Shown here piece after piece: positions 3,715-20,911 of a stretch of 20,911 nt of DNA. The stretch's first letter is position 1. Each line of letters starts with the position of its first letter. This DNA is from Lachnospira sp. UBA5912 (GTDB taxonomy: Bacteria; Bacillota; Clostridia; Lachnospirales; Lachnospiraceae). The position numbers were made by a program, and so were the translations under genes. The stretch spans positions 16,314 through 37,224 of the forward strand of contig DJDY01000002.1 of the NCBI GenBank assembly GCA_002435585.1, in the 5' to 3' direction. The notes under the pieces were generated by a model that saw only the letters and a program-made list of their open reading frames with translations, ran no database searches and was not told the origin of the DNA.

Positions 3715-3781
3715 AAGTGAATTTTGCCACTCACTGATGTATCAGGATTGCTACATTGCTATGCAATTCACGCAATCCTTA
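3700..3781 (+). repeat. Dispersed 82-nt structured repeat, copy A
   Basis: Matches 10744-10825 over 82 ungapped positions with 11 differences (87 %). Hairpin 1 has arms GAGTGtCAAAA and TTTTGcCACTC with one mismatch. Hairpin 2 has arms AGGATTGC and GCAATCCT around an inner ATTGC/GCAAT. In the other copy the second stem keeps pairing through a G-U wobble, which suggests an RNA structure on the forward strand. Confidence 0.8.
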
Positions 3782-3841
3782 AACACCTCAAACTTTCATA
3801 AAATGCCGTATTCACGACATTTTATTACGTTTTCGGTGTTT
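3781..3841 (+). repeat. Nested inverted repeat downstream of repeat copy A
   Basis: Outer arms AAACACC (3781-3787) and GGTGTTT (3835-3841) enclose ATAAAATG (3798-3805) and CATTTTAT (3818-3825), with a further CGT/ACG inside. Together with the flanking hairpins this makes a continuous chain of stems between 3706 and 3891. Confidence 0.55.
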
Positions 3842-3855
3842 AGCGTGTCACAAGT

Positions 3856-3891
3856 AAAAAAGTCTTTTTCTGCAAGCAGAAACGACTTTTT
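3856..3891. terminator. Strong intrinsic, bidirectional terminator-like hairpin
   Basis: AAAAAGTC...TTTCTGC, a short loop, then GCAGAAA...GACTTTTT. The stem is flanked by an A-run on the left and a T-run on the right, so it could terminate in either direction. It lies between divergent genes (kinase -, HIT +), where neither needs a terminator, so it may end a small RNA or act as an attenuator. Confidence 0.7.
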
Positions 3892-3948
3892 ATACTTTTG
3901 ACAGTTACATTTTAATATTGATGGTGCATAATTAATTATACATACATT

Positions 3949-13079: not shown

Positions 13080-13826
13080 ATGAAGGTGGCAATATGCGAG
13101 GATGACAGGATACAGGCTGGACAACTGGAGAATTATCTTAAGGAACGGCTAAAAAAAACACAGACAAAGTATGATATAGACATATATTTCAGTGTGGATG
13201 ATATTAAAAAAATAGAGAATGATATTATAAAATATGATGCCTATTTTCTTGATATAGAGCTTGGCAAAGATAATGGTGTTGAGCTTGCAAGATATATAAA
13301 GTCAAAAAATAAAAATGCAATGATAGTATTTACAACAAGCCATACTGGTTATATGCATGAGGCTTTTGATGTGCATGCATTTAATTATCTGATAAAGCCA
13401 GTTACGAAAGAGAAGACCGATAAGATAGTGACACAGCTTGAAGAGATGATGTATGAGAATGAGGAAAAGCTGGTGTTCAGCTATAAAAGAGAAATAATAA
13501 GTATATATTACGATGATATAGTATATATTGAGTCTAATGCAAGACGTGTTAAAATAGTCACATCAGATAACGAATACTGCTTCTATGGGATAGTTAAGGA
13601 GATATATAGTGAACTGCCAGAGCTTATATTTGGAAGACCAAGAAGTGGCTGTATAGTAAATTACAGATATGTATGCAATATACATAAAACAGAAGTGATA
13701 TGCAAAAGAGCAATAGGGGAAGAAGAAATACATCTGAGTATGGGAAGAGGTATGTACAATAATATAATAAGTGACTATACACGGTACATAACATCAGAAA
13801 GAGGCAGAAGCAGAAGACTCTGGTAG
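13080..13826 (+). CDS. LytTR-family response regulator
   Basis: A 248-residue two-domain regulator. The receiver domain (1-120) has the acidic pocket Asp8/Asp9 (ICEDDR), the phosphoacceptor Asp58 (YFLDIELG), Thr85/Thr86 (VFTTSHTGY) and Lys106 (NYLIKP). The LytTR DNA-binding domain (about 140-235) contains YDDIVYIESNARRVKIVTSD, an elongated beta fold that binds direct repeats in AgrA/VirR/ComE-type regulators. AAAGGGG precedes the start. The GHKL kinase gene follows 54 bp downstream, forming a classic Agr-like pair. The likely targets are the two matching promoters at 15.2 and 15.95 kb, which carry a correctly spaced direct repeat. Confidence 0.93.
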   Translation: MKVAICEDDRIQAGQLENYLKERLKKTQTKYDIDIYFSVDDIKKIENDIIKYDAYFLDIELGKDNGVELARYIKSKNKNAMIVFTTSHTGYMHEAFDVHAFNYLIKPVTKEKTDKIVTQLEEMMYENEEKLVFSYKREIISIYYDDIVYIESNARRVKIVTSDNEYCFYGIVKEIYSELPELIFGRPRSGCIVNYRYVCNIHKTEVICKRAIGEEEIHLSMGRGMYNNIISDYTRYITSERGRSRRLW

Positions 13827-13880
13827 AGTAAAGGCACAACTTGTTATGCGCAAAAAACATGCGCAGAAAAGAGGATTAGT

Positions 13881-15140
13881 ATGATATACGATACATATAT
13901 ATTAGATATATTTATGGGAATTCTGGATTACATTATATATATGGAGTATAAAAGATATGCGGGGAGAAAAAGAGAATATAACAGTATAAATTATATCAGT
14001 GCAGTTGCAGTTATAATCATAGATATTATATGTAACTGCACATTCTTATATTACAACAGAAGTGGAATGTATATAATTCTTGCGCCTGTTATGCTGCTTA
14101 CACGGGACAAAACAGTAGAGATATACAGAAATATTACGGATATAGCTTATTATATAGGAATGATGATAAGCACTAATATTGTTGTGAGATTTTTCCTTGA
14201 AACATATTCTTTTACAAGAATAGAGAAACATTATGCAGATATAAAAAGTGAGATAATGTGTATAATAATGATAAAAATAATATTTATTATACTTGTAAAT
14301 GTATATAAAAAATATATAGGGGTAGAATTTGGGAAAATAGGAGGAACAGCCATAACATTTACATCATTGTCGGTTACAATGCTAATCGTGCTGGTCAGCC
14401 GTATCGGATATGAATATGTCCAGATACGACATAGTATAACAGTAATACTTGTAATATTATGGTTTTTTATGAATATTATCGTAATATTTACTAATGCAAT
14501 AGAGAGAAGCAACAGATATAGCTATGAACTTATTATGCTGGAAAGGGAGCGTGAAACTAACCGCAAGATATATGACAATATAAAAGCAGGTCAGGAAGAA
14601 CTAAGAAATATAAGACATGATATGAAGAACCGTCTTAATACGCTCAGAGCTGTTGTATCACAGAATGACAGCGATACAGTACTTGAGTATCTTGATAGTA
14701 TGATAGGAAGTGTAGACAGTGTTAAAGGAAAAATATACTGTAACAATCTTCTTATCAATAATATACTTACATATAAGCTGGATGGTCTGGATGCTGATAT
14801 AGAGCTTAAATGTGAAGCAGAGGTATCTGAACAGCTCGATATAGATATGGGAGATATGGGAGTTATAATAGGCAATCTTCTTGATAACAGTATCAGGGGA
14901 GCTAAAGCTGTCGAAAAGGGTGGTTACGTACATATAATTATAACGCAGAGTATAGGAAGACTTATAATTGTAATTGAGAATAACTATATAAAAAATAAAG
15001 TAAAGAAGCCAATATCATACTATATAGACCATGGAAGAGGCATTAATAATGTGCGCCGCCTTGTAAATAAGTATGAAGGTACATATAGTGAAAAAATAAC
15101 GGATAATGTGTATCGAACGGAGATAACAATAGAAATATAA
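13881..15140 (+). CDS. AgrC-like GHKL sensor histidine kinase
   Basis: A 419-residue kinase. The N-terminal half (about 1-210) has six or seven hydrophobic segments forming the sensor. A coiled linker (LIMLERERETNRKIYDNIKA) then leads to the dimerisation helix with phosphoacceptor His246 in IRHDMKNRL, the HxxxN form of the HPK10/AgrC class. The GHKL ATPase has N-box IIGNLLDNSIRGA (Asn336) and the glycine box DHGRGINNVRRLV. Kinases of this class sense peptides or membrane state and pass phosphate to LytTR regulators, here the preceding gene. AGAGG lies 6 nt before the start. The duplicated promoter unit begins directly after the stop codon. The signal is unknown; the secreted proteins next door are candidates, or the cell-wall stress they may cause. 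Confidence 0.92.
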   Translation: MIYDTYILDIFMGILDYIIYMEYKRYAGRKREYNSINYISAVAVIIIDIICNCTFLYYNRSGMYIILAPVMLLTRDKTVEIYRNITDIAYYIGMMISTNIVVRFFLETYSFTRIEKHYADIKSEIMCIIMIKIIFIILVNVYKKYIGVEFGKIGGTAITFTSLSVTMLIVLVSRIGYEYVQIRHSITVILVILWFFMNIIVIFTNAIERSNRYSYELIMLERERETNRKIYDNIKAGQEELRNIRHDMKNRLNTLRAVVSQNDSDTVLEYLDSMIGSVDSVKGKIYCNNLLINNILTYKLDGLDADIELKCEAEVSEQLDIDMGDMGVIIGNLLDNSIRGAKAVEKGGYVHIIITQSIGRLIIVIENNYIKNKVKKPISYYIDHGRGINNVRRLVNKYEGTYSEKITDNVYRTEITIEI

Positions 15141-15160
15141 GCAATAATTTCACCACAACA

Positions 15161-15178
15161 TTGTTAAAATAATAACAA
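15161..15178. repeat. Palindromic site upstream of peptide gene 1
   Basis: TTGTTA (15161-15166), six bases, TAACAA (15173-15178). It is kept exactly upstream of the second peptide gene (15895-15912), although it no longer follows a kinase gene there. It therefore belongs to the promoter unit and is probably an operator rather than the kinase terminator. Confidence 0.5.
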
Positions 15179-15190
15179 GCTTGCAAAATA

Positions 15191-15251
15191 TTACATCAAC
15201 GGATACAACTTTTTACATTTGGAAAATATCGTAAAATTAATGTGTTATAAT
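15191..15251 (+). promoter_or_regulatory. Peptide gene 1 promoter with LytTR-like direct repeat
   Basis: Extended -10 TGtTATAAT (15243-15251). The -35 position (15223-15228, AAAATA) has no consensus. Just upstream, TTACAT occurs at 15191 and 15213, a 22-bp period that places both on one helix face, as LytTR dimers require. A weak -35 plus an adjacent activator site implies activation by the neighbouring regulator. Confidence 0.65.
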
Positions 15252-15318
15252 GCATCACATAGTAATTTGTCGGCAGAATTCTATATAACAATCATTTAAA
15301 TACGAGGAGGTACTTAAG

Positions 15319-15753
15319 ATGATAAACAGAAAGTTATCAAGTAAGATTATTACAGGATTATTTGCTGTGATGGTTGGTGTTGCAGGTGTACAGGGAGTTA
15401 CGGCATATGCAAGTAACTATAGTGATACAAAATTTGAGTTTGAATTTGAATATTTTAATAAATCTTGTGAAACTGAAGTCAGAGCTAAAGAGGATACAAG
15501 CTCAGTATATATTTATTGTACAGAATATGAAGGCGATGATTGTGGTTTTAATGGCTATGCTTATGGATGCGATAATTATGATAAAGCTGGAAGCGAATGT
15601 AAGAGTAACAGATATTCTATATATTATGGTACTAAACGTAAAATGATAAATTATATAAGAGAAGATGGCAAAGATTATGCCTACATAAAAGGTGACCTTA
15701 AAACTTATGGTATTGTTTATTATGGAGGTTTGTGGAGTCCGGACTCTATATAA
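15319..15753 (+). CDS. Secreted cysteine-rich small protein 1 (bacteriocin-like)
   Basis: 144 residues behind GAGGAGG. A Sec signal peptide (basic INRKLSSK, hydrophobic core, TAYA) predicts cleavage after Ala31 and a mature chain of about 113 residues. The mature part is rich in Tyr, Asp and Gly, with VRAKEDTSSVYIYC and the C-terminus YYGGLWSPDSI. Small secreted proteins with this general layout and a Trp-containing tail occur in the lactococcin-972 and DUF2712 groups next to transporter genes; the relation is remembered, not computed. It has five cysteines (50, 67, 75, 84, 94). The second copy has a sixth where this one has Arg107, so one thiol here is unpaired. It is followed by a gene fragment, not by the transporter genes. 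Toxin, signal or surface-ligand roles remain open. Confidence 0.8.
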   Translation: MINRKLSSKIITGLFAVMVGVAGVQGVTAYASNYSDTKFEFEFEYFNKSCETEVRAKEDTSSVYIYCTEYEGDDCGFNGYAYGCDNYDKAGSECKSNRYSIYYGTKRKMINYIREDGKDYAYIKGDLKTYGIVYYGGLWSPDSI

Positions 15754-15775
15754 TTATGATGATGTAATTAATTAG

Positions 15776-15844
15776 GGCAAAATAGATTTTTATGAGTATC
15801 CCGTTCATAAGGCAGTGCTGCTTGAAGATATAAAAGGGCTTTAG
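15776..15844 (+). pseudogene. 3' remnant of a DUF5028-like gene
   Basis: The reading frame between TAG (15773) and TAG (15842) encodes IDFYEYPVHKAVLLEDIKGL-stop. The intact gene at 18283-18849 ends LDFSNYPVHKAVLFEDVKGF-stop. A 17-bp block (tatcccgttcataaggc) is identical, and similarity continues past the stop (GTAAAAAT...CCAG.ATGA). There is no start codon or ribosome binding site. It is the tail of a lost second copy of the gene. Confidence 0.8.
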
Positions 15845-15894
15845 GTAAAAATGTACCAGAATGAGAAAAGAAAAGCAATAATTTAGCCATAATA

Positions 15895-15985
15895 TTGTTA
15901 AAATAATAACAAACTTGCAAAATATTACATCAACAGATACAACTTTTTACATTTGCAAAATATCGTAAAATTAATGTGTTATAAT
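15895..15985 (+). promoter_or_regulatory. Peptide gene 2 promoter with LytTR-like direct repeat
   Basis: An exact positional copy of the first promoter, offset by 734 bp: palindrome 15895-15912, TTACAT at 15925 and 15947 (22-bp period), extended -10 TGtTATAAT ending at 15985. Only about 7 of 132 bases differ from the first copy, none of them in the TTACAT boxes or the -10. Confidence 0.65.
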
Positions 15986-16049
15986 GCATTACATAGTAAT
16001 TCGCCGGCGGAATTCTATATAACAATTTTAAATTATGGAGGTACTTAGA

Positions 16050-16481
16050 ATGATAAACAGAAAATTATCAAGTAAGATTATTACAGGATTATTTGCTGTG
16101 ATGGTTAGTATTGCAGGTGTACAGGGAGTTACAGCATATGCAAGTAACTATACTGATACAAAATTTGAGTTTAGTTTTGAATACGGTAATACATGTGAAA
16201 CTGGAGTCAGGGCCAAAGAGGATACAAGCTCAGTATATATTTATTGTACACAAAACGAAGGCGATGATTGTGGTTTTAATGCTTACGCTTATGGATGCGA
16301 TAGTTATGGTAGAGATGGAAGTGAATGTAAGAGTAATGGATACTCTATATATTATGGTACCGTGTGTAAAATGATAAATTATATAAAAGAAGATGGCAAA
16401 AATTATGCCTATATAAAAGGTGACCTTAAGGCTTATGATGCCGTCTATTATGGAGGTTTATGGAGTCCCGACTCTATCTAG
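16050..16481 (+). CDS. Secreted cysteine-rich small protein 2 (bacteriocin-like)
   Basis: 143 residues. The start is ATG 16050, matching copy 1 and placed after GGAGG; an in-frame ATG at 16035 overlaps that site and is rejected. It has the same signal peptide (cleavage after Ala31) and the same C-terminus GLWSPDSI. The two proteins are about 84 % identical overall, but most changes fall in the mature part (S/T, E/S, Y/N, N/S, A/D, R/G, KR/VC and others). This copy has six cysteines (49, 66, 74, 83, 93, 106), enough for three disulfides, and may be the better-folded form. It is followed at 33 bp by the lipoprotein gene, so it is the first gene of the transporter operon. Family placement is as for copy 1. 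Confidence 0.8.
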   Translation: MINRKLSSKIITGLFAVMVSIAGVQGVTAYASNYTDTKFEFSFEYGNTCETGVRAKEDTSSVYIYCTQNEGDDCGFNAYAYGCDSYGRDGSECKSNGYSIYYGTVCKMINYIKEDGKNYAYIKGDLKAYDAVYYGGLWSPDSI

Positions 16482-16514
16482 TCTTCGAGTAGCACAAAAA
16501 GGTGAGGTATATAT

Positions 16515-17384
16515 ATGAAAAAAATCATAATACTGCTGATGGCTTCATTGACAATAGCCATAACTGGCTGTGGAAAGAAGAGTGTTGATGATATATATTC
16601 AATGATGGATGAGAGTGATAGTATGCAGGATGCTGCTACACAAAGTTCTGACTCTGATAAATATAAGAAAAGCATTAAATCAGAAGGTTATAAGGAATGT
16701 GTTAATGATGTACCCGAACTTATAGAGCAGGGTAATGCAGTTACAGTAACATTACAAGGTAATGATAAGGACACTTTAACATTGCGTGTAGACGATGTGC
16801 TGGCATGTGACAATATAAGTGCATTGAAGCAATTAACATCAGAGAATGCATATAATAATTTAGTGAATTATGCCTTATACAAGGATAATAATGATTTTAT
16901 CGCTGAGGATGGCAGTATTACAGAAAGTGAAAGAGGAATAAAAAGAAAAGCGGTATGCGTTAAGCTTGGAGTAACTAATAATGATAATGATAGCTATATA
17001 TTAAGCCCAGCAGCTTTTATGTTATATGACCTGCGTGATATAAAAGAAGATGGTACATTTCAATATCAGAGATTAGAAGGAAGATTTGCATATACAGATG
17101 TACCAGATGGATGGAAATATAAGTCATCCGATAAGGTTACATTACAACCGCATGAAGAAAGAGAGATTGTTTTAATATTCTTTGTAGAAACAGAGTGGAT
17201 TGATAGTGGCGTGAGGTTAAATGATAATGGCAATTGGACATACGTAGATATTAAAACAGGTGGTTCGTCATTTAATAATATTTATATGACAACTTCATTT
17301 GCTGAGGTCAGTGGTGTGAATGTAAAAGAGGGATTAGCAGCTAATAAGGCATTGCTGCAATTAAACATCATGGATACAGATTAA
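16515..17384 (+). CDS. Lipoprotein with DUF4352-like beta-sandwich region
   Basis: A 289-residue protein. A type II signal peptide ends in the lipobox AITGC with Cys19 as the lipidated residue, so the protein is anchored to the outer face of the membrane. A Ser/Asp-rich linker (about 25-60) follows. The body has alternating beta strands, including AVCVKLGVTNNDNDSYILSP and VTLQPHEEREIVLIFFVETE. This 'conserved interaction strand, then residue-capped effector strand' pattern is typical of DUF4352/DUF5067-type immunoglobulin-like lipoproteins. It starts 33 bp after peptide gene 2 with GGTGAGG as ribosome binding site. Membrane lipoproteins beside a secreted toxin-like gene are often self-immunity proteins; that role is inferred from context only. 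Confidence 0.78.
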   Translation: MKKIIILLMASLTIAITGCGKKSVDDIYSMMDESDSMQDAATQSSDSDKYKKSIKSEGYKECVNDVPELIEQGNAVTVTLQGNDKDTLTLRVDDVLACDNISALKQLTSENAYNNLVNYALYKDNNDFIAEDGSITESERGIKRKAVCVKLGVTNNDNDSYILSPAAFMLYDLRDIKEDGTFQYQRLEGRFAYTDVPDGWKYKSSDKVTLQPHEEREIVLIFFVETEWIDSGVRLNDNGNWTYVDIKTGGSSFNNIYMTTSFAEVSGVNVKEGLAANKALLQLNIMDTD

Positions 17385-17390
17385 CAGGTT

Positions 17391-17427
17391 ATGGCAGTTG
17401 TACTTACATAGTTAGTATGACTGCCAT
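17391..17427 (+). terminator. Attenuator-like hairpin between the lipoprotein and permease genes
   Basis: ATGGCAGT (17391-17398) pairs perfectly with ACTGCCAT (17420-17427), with TACT/AGTA inside, followed by TAGTTTATT. It sits in an 87-bp operon gap and could end part of the transcripts, giving more peptide and lipoprotein than permease. Confidence 0.5.
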
Positions 17428-17471
17428 TAGTTTATTAAAATTAAAATAGATGATATTAAGGTGGAAGAAGT

Positions 17472-18296
17472 ATGAAACAGATGCTTAAAATAGAAATGGA
17501 AAGGGCGTTTAGGGGCACTGCACTTAAAGTTGCTCTGGCTATAGGGATGATTATATGTGTATTGCAGTTCGTTATACAGGTTATACCTGCGGCTGATAAT
17601 CCTTTGGAATATTATGTTCCAATGAGTCTTGCTATACCGGTCAATGTGCATAATACATGGATAGGAGGCTGGTATAATATGTATTATACATTGTATATAA
17701 GGCTGATACCATTGCTGGCGGTAATACCATATGCAGTTACATTCTATACGGATAATAAAAAAGGAATAGTCAGAAATTATTATGTCAGAACCAAAAAGAT
17801 TAATTATCTGCTTGCTAAGCTTATTGCAGTATTTTTAACAGGTGGTTTTGTCGCAACAATTCCGCTTCTGCTAAATCTTATAGCAACATCGGCAGTTCTT
17901 CCGTCAATTATAGGTATTAATGGAACTATTAGCTGTAATGCCAATGGAATGTGGTCATACATATGGTATTCACATCCATATGTATATTATTTTATGTATT
18001 TAATTCTTCAATATATATGCGCTGGATTACTTGCAACAATATCTCTGGTGATATCCCAGTGGGTTAATAACAGTTTTATAGTGCTGCTGTTTCCTATAGT
18101 ACTATGTGAATTCCTTAATGCTGTTACGAACTGGTCATCTAACAGAGCATTAAGAGGAATGGCTGCATATAAGCTGCTTAGTATTGAACAGCTATTACCT
18201 AATTACTGGCAGAGTTATGTGCTATTTATTTTAATTATTATTGCATTTGATGTTGTATTTTATTTGTGGAGAGGTGTTAAGAATGACACATTATAA
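17472..18296 (+). CDS. ABC-2-like membrane permease 1
   Basis: A 274-residue hydrophobic protein with about six membrane helices. The first follows a short cytoplasmic start (MKQMLKIEMERAFRG, as in ABC-2 permeases). A long extracytoplasmic loop (about 40-75) comes next, then paired helices around LIPLLAVIPYAVTFY, LIAVFLTGGFVATIPLLLNL, YVYYFMYLILQYICAGLLAT and FIVLLFPIVL, and a last helix near the C-terminus. The motif DNKKGIVRNYYVRTKKINYLLAK between helices 2 and 3 corresponds to the coupling region of ABC-2 permeases (RGxxxNxxxR...K-type). It probably transports or protects against the secreted protein as part of an ABC complex whose ATPase is not in this window. It overlaps the next gene by 14 bp, showing translational coupling. 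Confidence 0.75.
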   Translation: MKQMLKIEMERAFRGTALKVALAIGMIICVLQFVIQVIPAADNPLEYYVPMSLAIPVNVHNTWIGGWYNMYYTLYIRLIPLLAVIPYAVTFYTDNKKGIVRNYYVRTKKINYLLAKLIAVFLTGGFVATIPLLLNLIATSAVLPSIIGINGTISCNANGMWSYIWYSHPYVYYFMYLILQYICAGLLATISLVISQWVNNSFIVLLFPIVLCEFLNAVTNWSSNRALRGMAAYKLLSIEQLLPNYWQSYVLFILIIIAFDVVFYLWRGVKNDTL

Positions 18297-18849
18297 TAAA
18301 AAGAAGATGATAAAATTAGCAGGCGGCATAATAATATTGATTGCAGTAGTCATAATATGGGCTGTTAATTTTATTGATGTAAATAAAAGATTTCCTAAAG
18401 CGGTGCAAGAGATATATCATATTGGAGAAAGTCTTGAATATAGAAATTTTACAATAAATGTAAATGATATTTCGTATATTTTAGCAGATGAGGCAAAAGA
18501 AAAGTATGGCATAGAAGGAAAAGATGACTTTGAATATTTTGTTATAAGTATGAATGTTACTAGTGAAAGTGATGTAACAGAAAATCTGGAAAAAGCGATA
18601 GGACAGTATATTGGTTTAGAGGCATATCCAATAGGATATAGTAATCAAGGTACGATAATTGAAGATGGAAAAGAAGATATCAATATTGAACCGAAGGAAA
18701 GCAAGGATGTAATAATTTATTTTGTTATCACCAATGGAATGGTAAGAGAAGACAGGAGAGAACTGTTTAAAAAATCGGATATATATTTAGATTTTTCTAA
18801 TTATCCCGTTCATAAGGCCGTACTCTTTGAAGATGTAAAAGGTTTTTAA
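18283..18849 (+). CDS. DUF5028-like membrane-anchored protein
   Basis: 188 residues from ATG 18283, placed 8 nt after GGAGAGG within the end of the permease gene; longer upstream starts have no ribosome binding site. One N-terminal helix (about 10-30: IKLAGGIIILIAVVIIWAV) anchors an extracytoplasmic beta-rich domain. It begins NKRFPKAVQEIYHIGESLEYRNFTINVND and ends NYPVHKAVLFEDVKGF. The opening pattern (KxFPxP..E.Y..gE.leyxxf.i.V) resembles DUF5028, small anchored proteins seen beside ABC permeases in Lachnospiraceae; this is from memory. The domain parallels that of the lipoprotein two genes upstream. A second, nearly lost copy of its 3' end lies at 15776-15844. Accessory transport or immunity function is inferred from context. 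Confidence 0.7.
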   Translation: MTHYNKKKMIKLAGGIIILIAVVIIWAVNFIDVNKRFPKAVQEIYHIGESLEYRNFTINVNDISYILADEAKEKYGIEGKDDFEYFVISMNVTSESDVTENLEKAIGQYIGLEAYPIGYSNQGTIIEDGKEDINIEPKESKDVIIYFVITNGMVREDRRELFKKSDIYLDFSNYPVHKAVLFEDVKGF

Positions 18850-18944
18850 ATTAACATTCAGGAGCGGTTGTTCATCATATAAGACAGTACTTGTAAAAAT
18901 AGAGGAACCAGGATGAAATATAGTCAGAACGGAGGTAAGTGATT

Positions 18945-19703
18945 ATGAAAAGGTTAGTAGATTTATTGAGAATAAATGAAGTCAGATTTACGGCTATAAT
19001 ACTGTCGGTTATGACAATTGCTGCTTTGATTAGCTCAAAGGGTAATCTTATGTCCGGAGGGGCTGTGCCATGTATATATGATATATATCTGTTAGGGGTG
19101 ATGTATATGGTGTCAACATTCTGTGTGCCATTTGTACTTTTTTATATATTATTTGTAGAAAGGTATAATCAAAGACCAATGCAGGTTATCCGCGAAGGGA
19201 GTGTGAGTAATGTATGGAAAAGAAGTGTTGTTGACTTGCTTATTTTAACAGTATTTTTTACATTATATGTATTCATATTGACAACAATAGCAGGACTGGT
19301 GTTCACGGATAGGTTTTATAACTGGAATGAATTAAACAGCCGCTGTGTAGCATGGAGTGGCAGGATATGTGAGGAACAGCCTTCATTTGTATTACTTCTT
19401 ATATCATACATAGTGGAAACCTTTGAAACATTTCTTGTCACTGGTATTGTTATGCTCGGAGTATCGTGGTGTACGAATAAGGAGTGGACAGGATATCTGG
19501 CATCAATAGCATTAATAACAGTTGATAAGGCAGGTGTGTGTGACGGGGTTATATTTACAAGATACTATATATCAGGCGGAGTTTATAAGAAGGGGCTAAG
19601 TATAAGTACTAATATTATATATCCGTTGCTGGCTGCTATTATAGTGTTTGCTCTTGTAAATGTGTTAGTCAGATTTAAAAAGAAGGAATTTCTGGGGTCG
19701 TGA
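18945..19703 (+). CDS. ABC-2-like membrane permease 2
   Basis: About 252 residues from ATG 18945, 9 nt after GGAGG; an in-frame GTG at 18939 is too close to that site. About six membrane helices: FTAIILSVMTIAALISS, an extended VYDIYLLGVMYMVSTFCVPFVLFYILF region, SVVDLLILTVFFTLYVFIL, FVLLLISYIVETFETFLVTG, WTGYLASIALITVDKA and YPLLAAIIVFALVNVLV. The basic coupling-like stretch RYNQRPMQVIREGSVSNVWKR follows the second helix. The family is distant from permease 1 but the layout is the same. A 95-bp gap separates it from the DUF5028-like gene; part of that gap resembles the sequence after the DUF5028-like remnant at 15.85 kb. Confidence 0.72.
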   Translation: MKRLVDLLRINEVRFTAIILSVMTIAALISSKGNLMSGGAVPCIYDIYLLGVMYMVSTFCVPFVLFYILFVERYNQRPMQVIREGSVSNVWKRSVVDLLILTVFFTLYVFILTTIAGLVFTDRFYNWNELNSRCVAWSGRICEEQPSFVLLLISYIVETFETFLVTGIVMLGVSWCTNKEWTGYLASIALITVDKAGVCDGVIFTRYYISGGVYKKGLSISTNIIYPLLAAIIVFALVNVLVRFKKKEFLGS

Positions 19704-19769
19704 TGTTATGATATGATAGGGATTAACAGCAGCTTAAATATACCTTGGTAAGTGGGAGGTGTGACGTAT

Positions 19770-20630
19770 ATGCATATGTTTATGTTGCAGATAAAGTACG
19801 ATATAAGAGAAGGAATAGTACAGCAGTGGAAGAAATATGCGGTGCTTTGTGTGGTATATATAGCCTGTATTATACATTTTATAATGCTGTGCAGGGCAAA
19901 CAGGCATATAGATACATATACATGTGGTGATATGGTTATGTGGATGTTTGATGGTGTTAAGAAGTTTGATGCAGGTGCTAGAAATAATGTTGACATATCA
20001 TCTGTATATATACTTCCTAACATATTTATAGCCTATATTATAGGCAATTATGTCATAAAAGACCTATATGGGTATGGTAAGGACATACTTATAAGGACTG
20101 GAAGCCGTATTAAATGGTGGCTTAGCAAGTGCATATGGTGTGTCTTGACCTCCTGTATGTGTTATGCAATGTTATATGTCATTATTATTATAGCAGGTAT
20201 ATGTACGGGTGGTTTTACATTTGTACCAACGAAAGAGGTATGCTATTCACTTCTTCATATGGATAAGCAGCTTATTATTGATAATCCTAATCTGACAGGG
20301 CTTATGGCAAGTATGATGGTTATGAGCCTTGTAATGACTATAACCTTTGGCATTATCCAGATTGCTGTGGGACTTATCGTTTCACCTACAATCTCATATA
20401 TTATAGTTGTGTCGTTTCTGGTTGTAGGGGCATTTTCTGATAATCCGCTTGTTATATCTATATATTGTATGGCGCTTAGAAGCGGAATGTACAGTCCGGG
20501 CGGTTACAATATGTGGCTTGGACTTCTTATTATGGCAGTGATAATAATGTGCTGCATAATTGCCGGTACATTGTATGCACGCAGGATGGACATAATAAGT
20601 AAAAAGCAGGAATGGCAGAATCCGGAATAA
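19770..20630 (+). CDS. ABC-2-like membrane permease 3
   Basis: About 286 residues from ATG 19770, behind GGGAGG at 10 nt; GTG codons at 19752 and 19761 lie in or too near that site. Six or seven predicted helices, including YAVLCVVYIACIIHFIMLC, IYILPNIFIAYIIGNYVI, CVLTSCMCYAMLYVIIIIAG, LMASMMVMSLVMTITFGIIQ, ISYIIVVSFLVVGAF and the C-terminal IMAVIIMCCIIAGTLYARRM. The segment DLYGYGKDILIRTGSRIKWWLSKC is the coupling-type stretch (RxGSRxxWxxxK) of ABC-2-like permeases. It is the last gene of the cluster, and no ATPase follows within the window. Confidence 0.72.
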   Translation: MHMFMLQIKYDIREGIVQQWKKYAVLCVVYIACIIHFIMLCRANRHIDTYTCGDMVMWMFDGVKKFDAGARNNVDISSVYILPNIFIAYIIGNYVIKDLYGYGKDILIRTGSRIKWWLSKCIWCVLTSCMCYAMLYVIIIIAGICTGGFTFVPTKEVCYSLLHMDKQLIIDNPNLTGLMASMMVMSLVMTITFGIIQIAVGLIVSPTISYIIVVSFLVVGAFSDNPLVISIYCMALRSGMYSPGGYNMWLGLLIMAVIIMCCIIAGTLYARRMDIISKKQEWQNPE

Positions 20631-20911
20631 ATTATATTTATAGTTAAAGTAAAAATGTTCTTTAAAATTACGAATAAAATATATGCCAGTTTAACTTTTT
20701 TTCTATGCTCATTTAAAAATTTTTGAATGAAATTAAGACATTTTTATAGGCCGTTTTTATATGAAATGTGGGTAAAATGATGTAAAAAGCACAAAAAAAC
20801 GTTAAAAATTCCTCAAATAACAAAAGTGCGTAAACCTAGTATTTATGCGGCTTCACAGGAATATTTTGCCGCCGGAAAACAAAAAAATAAAAAAAATCAA
20901 AAAAAGTTGAA
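20631..20911 (+). other. Gene-free, A-rich stretch at the window end with nested inverted repeats
   Basis: No credible gene. A near-perfect 20-bp palindrome lies at 20710-20729 (CATTtAAAAATTTTTgAATG). ATTCCT (20808-20813) pairs with AGGAAT (20857-20862) and encloses GCGTAAA/TTTATGC (20828-20848). A competing GCGGC/GCCGC pair spans 20847-20872. It could be the 3' end of the permease operon or the structured leader of a gene beyond the window. Confidence 0.4.

Follow-up and report, generated by a model that had tools for sequence, protein, structure and literature searches.

The nine-gene cluster at positions 13080-20630 of a 20,911-nt stretch of DNA from Lachnospira sp. UBA5912 (G000:C104:16314-37224; hereafter the window, meaning that whole stretch) may encode a regulated, bacteriocin-like secreted protein together with a self-protection transporter of the LanFEG/Cpr kind, whose ATPase would be encoded elsewhere in the genome. 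We consider this reading, drawn from sequence comparisons, about equally likely to be right or wrong. The cluster holds a two-component system (TCS) consisting of a LytTR response regulator (RR) and a GHKL sensor kinase (HK), a duplicated gene for a secreted protein, S (copies S1 and S2), a lipoprotein (LP), three ABC-2-like permeases (M1, M2 and M3) and a protein with a single transmembrane (TM) segment (X7). Two further clusters lie on contigs C46 and C86 of the same genome, and one in a related genome, G008. Both genomes carry an orphan ATPase gene of the matching clade away from their clusters. The features of the window are listed below; open reading frames (ORFs) were called mechanically, signal peptides and membrane helices were judged by eye, and the lipobox was found with a simple motif.

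13080..13826, + strand: RR, response regulator (receiver and LytTR domains), AgrA-like (Pfam, NF046049)
13881..15140, + strand: HK, GHKL sensor kinase, AgrC-like (PF14501, NF046015)
15191..15251, + strand: candidate LytTR operator with paired TTACAT half-sites (22 nt apart), plus -10 box, upstream of S1 (exact composite pattern)
15319..15753, + strand: S1, secreted DUF2712-family protein, 144 aa including the signal peptide, C-terminal WSPDSI
15783..15852, + strand: 3'-terminal remnant of an X7 gene, IDFYEYPVHKAVLLEDIKGL* (DNA identity, tblastn, reading)
15925..15985, + strand: duplicate of the S1 operator candidate with its -10 box, upstream of S2
16050..16481, + strand: S2, secreted DUF2712-family protein, 143 aa; mature form 112 aa, modelled as a beta-sandwich (AlphaFold2)
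16515..17384, + strand: LP, lipoprotein with a DUF4352/MPT63-like beta-sandwich; lipobox ITGC
17472..18296, + strand: M1, ABC-2-like permease (homologues in the genus)
18283..18849, + strand: X7, single-TM protein of the DUF5027/DUF5028 type (position and profile)
18939..19703, + strand: M2, second permease (homologues in the C46, C86 and G008 clusters)
19752..20630, + strand: M3, third permease, DUF2705-like, below cut-off (PF10920)
20631..20911, + strand: non-coding contig end (in G008, the stretch past M3 runs into a 16S rRNA gene)

All ORFs of the cluster were confirmed, and the gene set given in the preliminary description of this DNA (LytTR, GHKL, two secreted proteins, a lipoprotein, three permeases and a DUF5028-like protein in one direction) is present, entirely on the + strand. 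That description mentions neither the missing ABC ATPase, nor the X7 remnant between S1 and S2, nor that the window stops where the contig does.

No ABC ATPase or remnant of one was found in the three clusters of the genome (window, C46, C86) or in that of G008 (L065). The end of the window, which is also the end of the contig, is not the cause, because the G008 stretch past M3 enters a 16S rRNA gene (L065 11364-11998) and the C86 cluster continues into another gene, which begins about 165 nt past M3. The genome (78.7% complete, 227 contigs) encodes a single ATPase of this type, on C72, which shares 48% identity with an ATPase from a cluster in another genus; the runner-up, on C23, trails it by a wide margin (E 2e-41 vs. 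2e-108 for C72). The C72 gene is isolated, flanked by a gene encoding a large secreted protein on one side and by pth and mfd (these two assigned by eye) on the other. Its G008 counterpart, 86% identical, adjoins the same pth and mfd. The dN/dS ratio of the orphan (0.067 between the two genomes) is near that of pth (0.047; both values are rough, as dS is high), indicating at the sequence level that the orphan is under purifying selection.

In a tree of 46 ATPases, the two orphans group with the L087 cluster ATPase as its sister (support 98/94), surrounded by other cluster ATPases. Among the ATPase loci of the genus (30 of the 39 matches), 25 adjoin a profile-labelled permease or X7 gene; the five without such a neighbour are the two orphans and three matches of 38-43% identity. 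Clusters counted as lacking an ATPase under the flank rule given below include L083, where the ATPase lies behind an insertion, and L097, which is cut by a contig end. By sequence, the cluster ATPase is nearest to the lantibiotic-protection ATPase LanF: its best NCBIfam model is TIGR03740 (lantibiotic protection; E 1.4e-48, 165.5 bits vs. a cut-off of 309.75), matched by 7 of 7 members, and its first functionally named plasmid match is BcrA, at 41% identity (among the matches listed, 30 of 1318). The orphan ATPase may power the clusters in trans. The absence of an ATPase from the clusters, with an orphan copy beside pth-mfd, looks new, as does the operator-promoter common to the loci, described below.

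S1 and S2 are, by homology, members of DUF2712 (PF10916), a family of unknown function, in line with the link drawn in the preliminary description. The precomputed PF10916 assignment (PF10916.15) is found on 25/25 and 102/105 S homologues in two homologue searches. Membership rests on homology because the local PF10916.13 model misses both proteins, and indeed has no match across the genome, while it matches 26 of the 89 members of the family alignment (A2) at E<=0.01, with a best value of 3.3e-12. A W[STC][PA]D motif lies within the last 28 residues in 88 of these 89 members, and both S1 and S2 end in WSPDSI. AlphaFold2 models mature S2 as an all-beta domain (mean pLDDT 95.2) with a predicted beta-sandwich fold. 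The earlier epithet 'cysteine-rich' fits the two proteins themselves (5 and 6 Cys in 112 aa for S1 and S2, respectively), which may form disulfides, but not the family, where the C-terminal 110 residues contain at most two in 64/89 members. In their mature form S1 and S2 are acidic (charge -6 and -7) and rich in Tyr, Gly and Asp; charge in the family is mixed.

With a signal peptide of its own, S should not depend on an ABC exporter, and export of S by the transporter is unlikely. The all-beta fold, the acidic Tyr/Gly/Asp-rich composition and the best fold matches of the S2 model, which are assorted beta-sandwiches (VIA-align/Foldseek vs. PDB), would also suit a non-toxic envelope or adhesion protein that the transporter places or recycles. 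We find this surface or signalling role quite improbable, however: inspection by eye showed no anchor signal in S, Sec should suffice for export of the protein, and the proximity of the ATPase to lantibiotic protection and BcrA points elsewhere.

Control by the TCS, as first suggested from the gene set, is supported by an operator shared between loci and by agr genes in related clusters. RR matches Response_reg (E 6e-12) and LytTR (E 2.5e-9) in Pfam, and NF046049 AgrA (E 1.1e-12) far below the cut-off of that model; HK matches HATPase_c_5 (PF14501, E 2.7e-12), and NF046015 HisKinAgrCStaph (E 1.5e-5), again far below its cut-off. The composite TTACAW-N16-TTACAW-N27-TAKAAT precedes S1, S2, the S gene on C46 and the M1 operon of G008. 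Exact occurrences number three in the window's genome and one in G008, each before a cluster operon, with no other in either; the pattern was derived from those same four sites, two of which are duplicates, leaving three independent ones. A 22-nt spacing of half-sites suits LytTR regulators. This repeat was reached by 0/300 shuffles for G008 but by 0.66, 0.82 and 0.23 of shuffles for S1, S2 and C46, respectively; because the repeat alone is not significant at the latter three sites, the operator argument rests on conservation between loci. With up to two mismatches, the composite is no commoner than a reversed control (18 vs. 15 in the window's genome, 11 vs. 15 in G008). One two-mismatch occurrence just upstream of the G008 orphan ATPase lies on the opposite strand and was taken as chance.

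Judging by gene content, a full agr quorum-sensing system lies inside three of the clusters in the genus (L071, L089 and the L. eligens locus L213/L098). All three have agrB alongside RR and HK, and in L071 and L089, where agrB is in the same cluster, an agrD-like ORF directly precedes S. The L. eligens locus, whose genome also contains L071, is annotated in RefSeq with a cyclic lactone autoinducer peptide and an AgrB-family protein. The DUF2712 frame of that locus (L098 8667-9142; L213 3761-4236) starts inside agrD, in another frame and without a signal peptide, and the S gene there looks broken while the transporter genes remain. L067 has a shortened agrB-like ORF, and outside the genus agrB-like genes occur at L144 and L164, with more distant ones at L153 and L168. 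In the window itself neither agrB nor agrD was found, nor any small ORF resembling an autoinducing peptide upstream of S1 or S2 (by a motif).

The neighbourhood is conserved well beyond the window. S is held by 7/150 genomes of the host's family, including the window's own; in the other six, S, M1, X7, the ATPase and M3 stand side by side in 6/6, in varying order, and a labelled lipoprotein is present in five. When named genomes were scanned with the ATPase alignment, at least 581 relatives turned up; the best 80, which were kept, come from Lachnospiraceae, Oscillospiraceae, Coriobacteria, Bacillaceae and others. The same-strand gene run around the ATPase includes M1 in 78 of these 80, M3 in 75, X7 in 68 and S in 33, and the wider clusters comprise a DUF2712 protein, a lipoprotein, two or three ABC-2-like permeases, a DUF5027/5028-type protein and the ABC ATPase. 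The preliminary description had named a lack of conserved gene order in relatives as refuting; what we find is conserved content in a varying order, to which that objection does not apply.

M1 is the membrane gene with the widest matches (homologues in 15/22 genus genomes), with no Pfam match of its own. The three permeases are separate proteins of 254-292 aa, whose relatives match ABC2_membrane_2 in 1/27 and DUF2705 in 3/27 cases (Pfam); M3 matches PF10920 (DUF2705) below the cut-off (E 0.0013 and 5.1e-4). Relatives of X7 and LP match DUF5027 in 6/22 and DUF5028 in 3/22 cases, and the X7 of the window matches neither. LP-like genes are multiplied within the L072, L077, L082 and L180 clusters, with or without S; two of those in L077 have identical shown ends.

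We propose the following scheme for a bacteriocin with a split self-protection transporter. The AgrA-type LytTR regulator, once phosphorylated by the GHKL kinase, would bind the paired TTACAT half-sites and turn on S1 together with the S2-LP-M1-X7-M2-M3 unit. Both S proteins would be exported by Sec, lose their signal peptides, fold into small beta-sandwich proteins and act on the envelope of rival bacteria. On the surface of the producing cell, LP and X7 would catch the S protein, and the permeases, driven by the ABC ATPase encoded beside pth-mfd, would clear it, as LanI and LanFEG do with lantibiotics. A broader proposal, possible but on the doubtful side, is that DUF2712 proteins are widespread, often agr-controlled beta-sandwich bacteriocins of about 12 kDa in gut Firmicutes and Coriobacteria, each with a LanFEG-like pump, and that in the window's Lachnospira and one relative the pump is split, with one orphan LanF-like ATPase energising the clusters in trans.

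Several findings weigh against the bacteriocin reading. A Foldseek search of the S2 model against PDB gave no match at E<=0.001, and the acidity of S1 and S2 is unusual among membrane-active bacteriocins. In the window's genome (at its 78.7% completeness) no agrB (PF04647) exceeds the cut-off (best E 0.019), and no exact operator accompanies the orphan ATPase. Since the C86 cluster begins with the first base of its contig, leaving the 5' side unseen, and the genome is incomplete, a hidden ATPase is possible. In G168 (72% complete), an ATPase-less cluster occurs with no ATPase elsewhere at E<=1e-35, which argues against sharing in trans. G153 (99% complete) likewise has an ATPase-less cluster (L090) and, outside it, no more than a weak match to the ATPase (E 9e-36); L090 has kept its TCS, lacks both ATPase and S, has a shortened X7 compared with the related L094, and is probably a decaying copy.

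Because G153 has an ATPase-less cluster without a close orphan, loss of the ATPase can also mean decay. The window's cluster might similarly have lost its ATPase and no longer work, the orphan serving something else; the absence of an ATPase from all three clusters of the genome would fit, as would that of M3 from the C46 cluster (L015, G000:C46 7309-8719), whose permease set is unlike that of the window. We judge this improbable, however, since RR, HK and the permeases look to be under purifying selection from their dN/dS of 0.12-0.24 against G008 (rough values, with dS of 1.2-2.2 near saturation), and since the orphan is intact, keeps its position in two genomes and is nested among cluster ATPases.

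The last point against the bacteriocin reading is the frequent absence of S, from 11/30 genus clusters and 30/54 named loci. These counts require a 5' flank of at least 3000 and a 3' flank of at least 250 for all, leaving out 7/37 genus and 26/80 named loci. S is not the core of the system, because many otherwise complete clusters lack it: loci with TCS, lipoprotein and transporter occur without S (e.g. L074, L076-L078), and G008 keeps the TCS, operator, permeases and LP with no S match. Such loci are compatible both with a bacteriocin and its immunity and with a resistance module to which the secreted protein is an accessory. According to the latter, LP, X7, the permeases, the ATPase and the TCS would form a Cpr/Bce-like detoxification system against foreign antimicrobial peptides, S being an accessory binder or decoy rather than a toxin; the multiplied LP genes of L072 and L180 are also in its favour. 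On the other hand, an agrD directly before S together with agrB in L071 and L089 is wiring for production rather than for sensing of foreign peptides, and it is S itself that is duplicated in the window, L066, L072, L081 and L144. We regard the detoxification explanation as somewhat unlikely.

S1 and S2 form a tandem duplicate, as initially noticed, with a spacing of about 730 bp, 87-92% DNA identity including the promoter region and 84.6% protein identity. Between them lies the 70-nt remnant of an X7 3' end, 80% identical in DNA to positions 18788-18857 and detected with X7 by tblastn (E 3.5e-5). Because this remnant lies between S1 and S2, we infer that a larger block, from S to X7, was formerly duplicated and later mostly deleted, leaving the remnant as a scar. 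For S2, a start at 16035 was set aside in favour of the ATG at 16050, which has GGAGG upstream at 16037. The G008 cluster sits behind the same CvpA-like gene as the window's and, since its stretch past M3 enters the 16S rRNA gene, M3 is very probably the last gene of the window's cluster as well; the window's contig breaks off at the matching point. Elsewhere in the window, a Clostridiales-1 RNA (RF01699) lies at 3735-3912 on the - strand (108.9 bits, E 2.7e-24).

Clusters of this kind are common, with up to five M1 matches per Lachnospira genome, and a hypothesis of regulated antagonism plus pump opens them to experiment, for instance in B. subtilis 168 via the Rok-repressed yybN operon discussed below. 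If one ATPase does serve all three sets of permeases, this would be an unusual instance of self-protection transporters sharing a motor, and genome mining for complete operons would overlook such split systems.

Lactococcin 972 and streptococcin B (scbABC), to which the preliminary description pointed, share with the cluster a Sec-secreted beta-sandwich protein (for S, by prediction) encoded with transport/immunity genes and the occurrence of bacteriocin-less loci, scbBC being present without scbA in 27.5% of pneumococcal genomes (PMC11796350). This link did not hold by sequence: no relation was found, with PF09683 (lactococcin 972) matching 0/89 family members at E<=0.01 and hhalign against one PF09683 member giving a probability of 13.7 over 22 columns. 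Furthermore, the permeases are separate proteins here, versus the single B gene of a three-gene operon. LanFEG/LanI and CprABC resemble such clusters in their ABC-2-like permeases, LanF-like ATPase, lipoprotein and TCS, and the Cpr-type resistance operons, which lack the genes of a producer, resemble the S-less loci (PMC5786555). The window differs from them in that no lanthionine genes were seen, X7 accompanies three permeases, the ATPase is remote, and the place of a modified peptide is taken by a 112-aa secreted protein of the Sec type. The TCS resembles AgrA and AgrC of agr (AgrBDCA), and related clusters hold agrB and agrD, whereas the window has neither and its genome has no agrB over the cut-off.

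A shared ATPase is known in MsiK. FhuC is likewise a single ATPase energising permeases encoded elsewhere (PMC10147376). Those are importers, however, whereas here an ABC-2, LanF-like transporter would be concerned and sharing is proposed from sequence.

Our literature search, which did not cover subscription papers, found no paper naming DUF2712, DUF2705, DUF5027 or DUF5028. Among annotated loci, the closest are on Priestia plasmids (NZ_CP072476, NZ_CP086209), where RefSeq gives DUF2712, DUF2705, WxPxxD, DUF2705 and ABC ATPase; the second locus differs solely in its first DUF2705 gene being called hypothetical. B. subtilis has PF10916 and PF10920 matches that we take to be yybNMLKJ, probably the same system. 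The yybN operon is described as of unknown function and repressed by Rok (PMC11841835, PMC2978689), which also targets sdp, sunA and sboA-alb for repression (PMC2978689); we count this in favour of the bacteriocin reading. Like the window, the Priestia loci and probably yybNMLKJ have a secreted DUF2712 protein followed by three permeases, in their case with an ABC ATPase; the window differs in its duplicated S, its lipoprotein, its LytTR/GHKL pair and the lack of an ATPase in the cluster. The suggestion of an undescribed variant is therefore borne out in part: the layout is already present in annotated Priestia plasmids and this kind of cluster is visible in databases, but the duplicated S, AgrCA-like control and remote ATPase set the present one apart.

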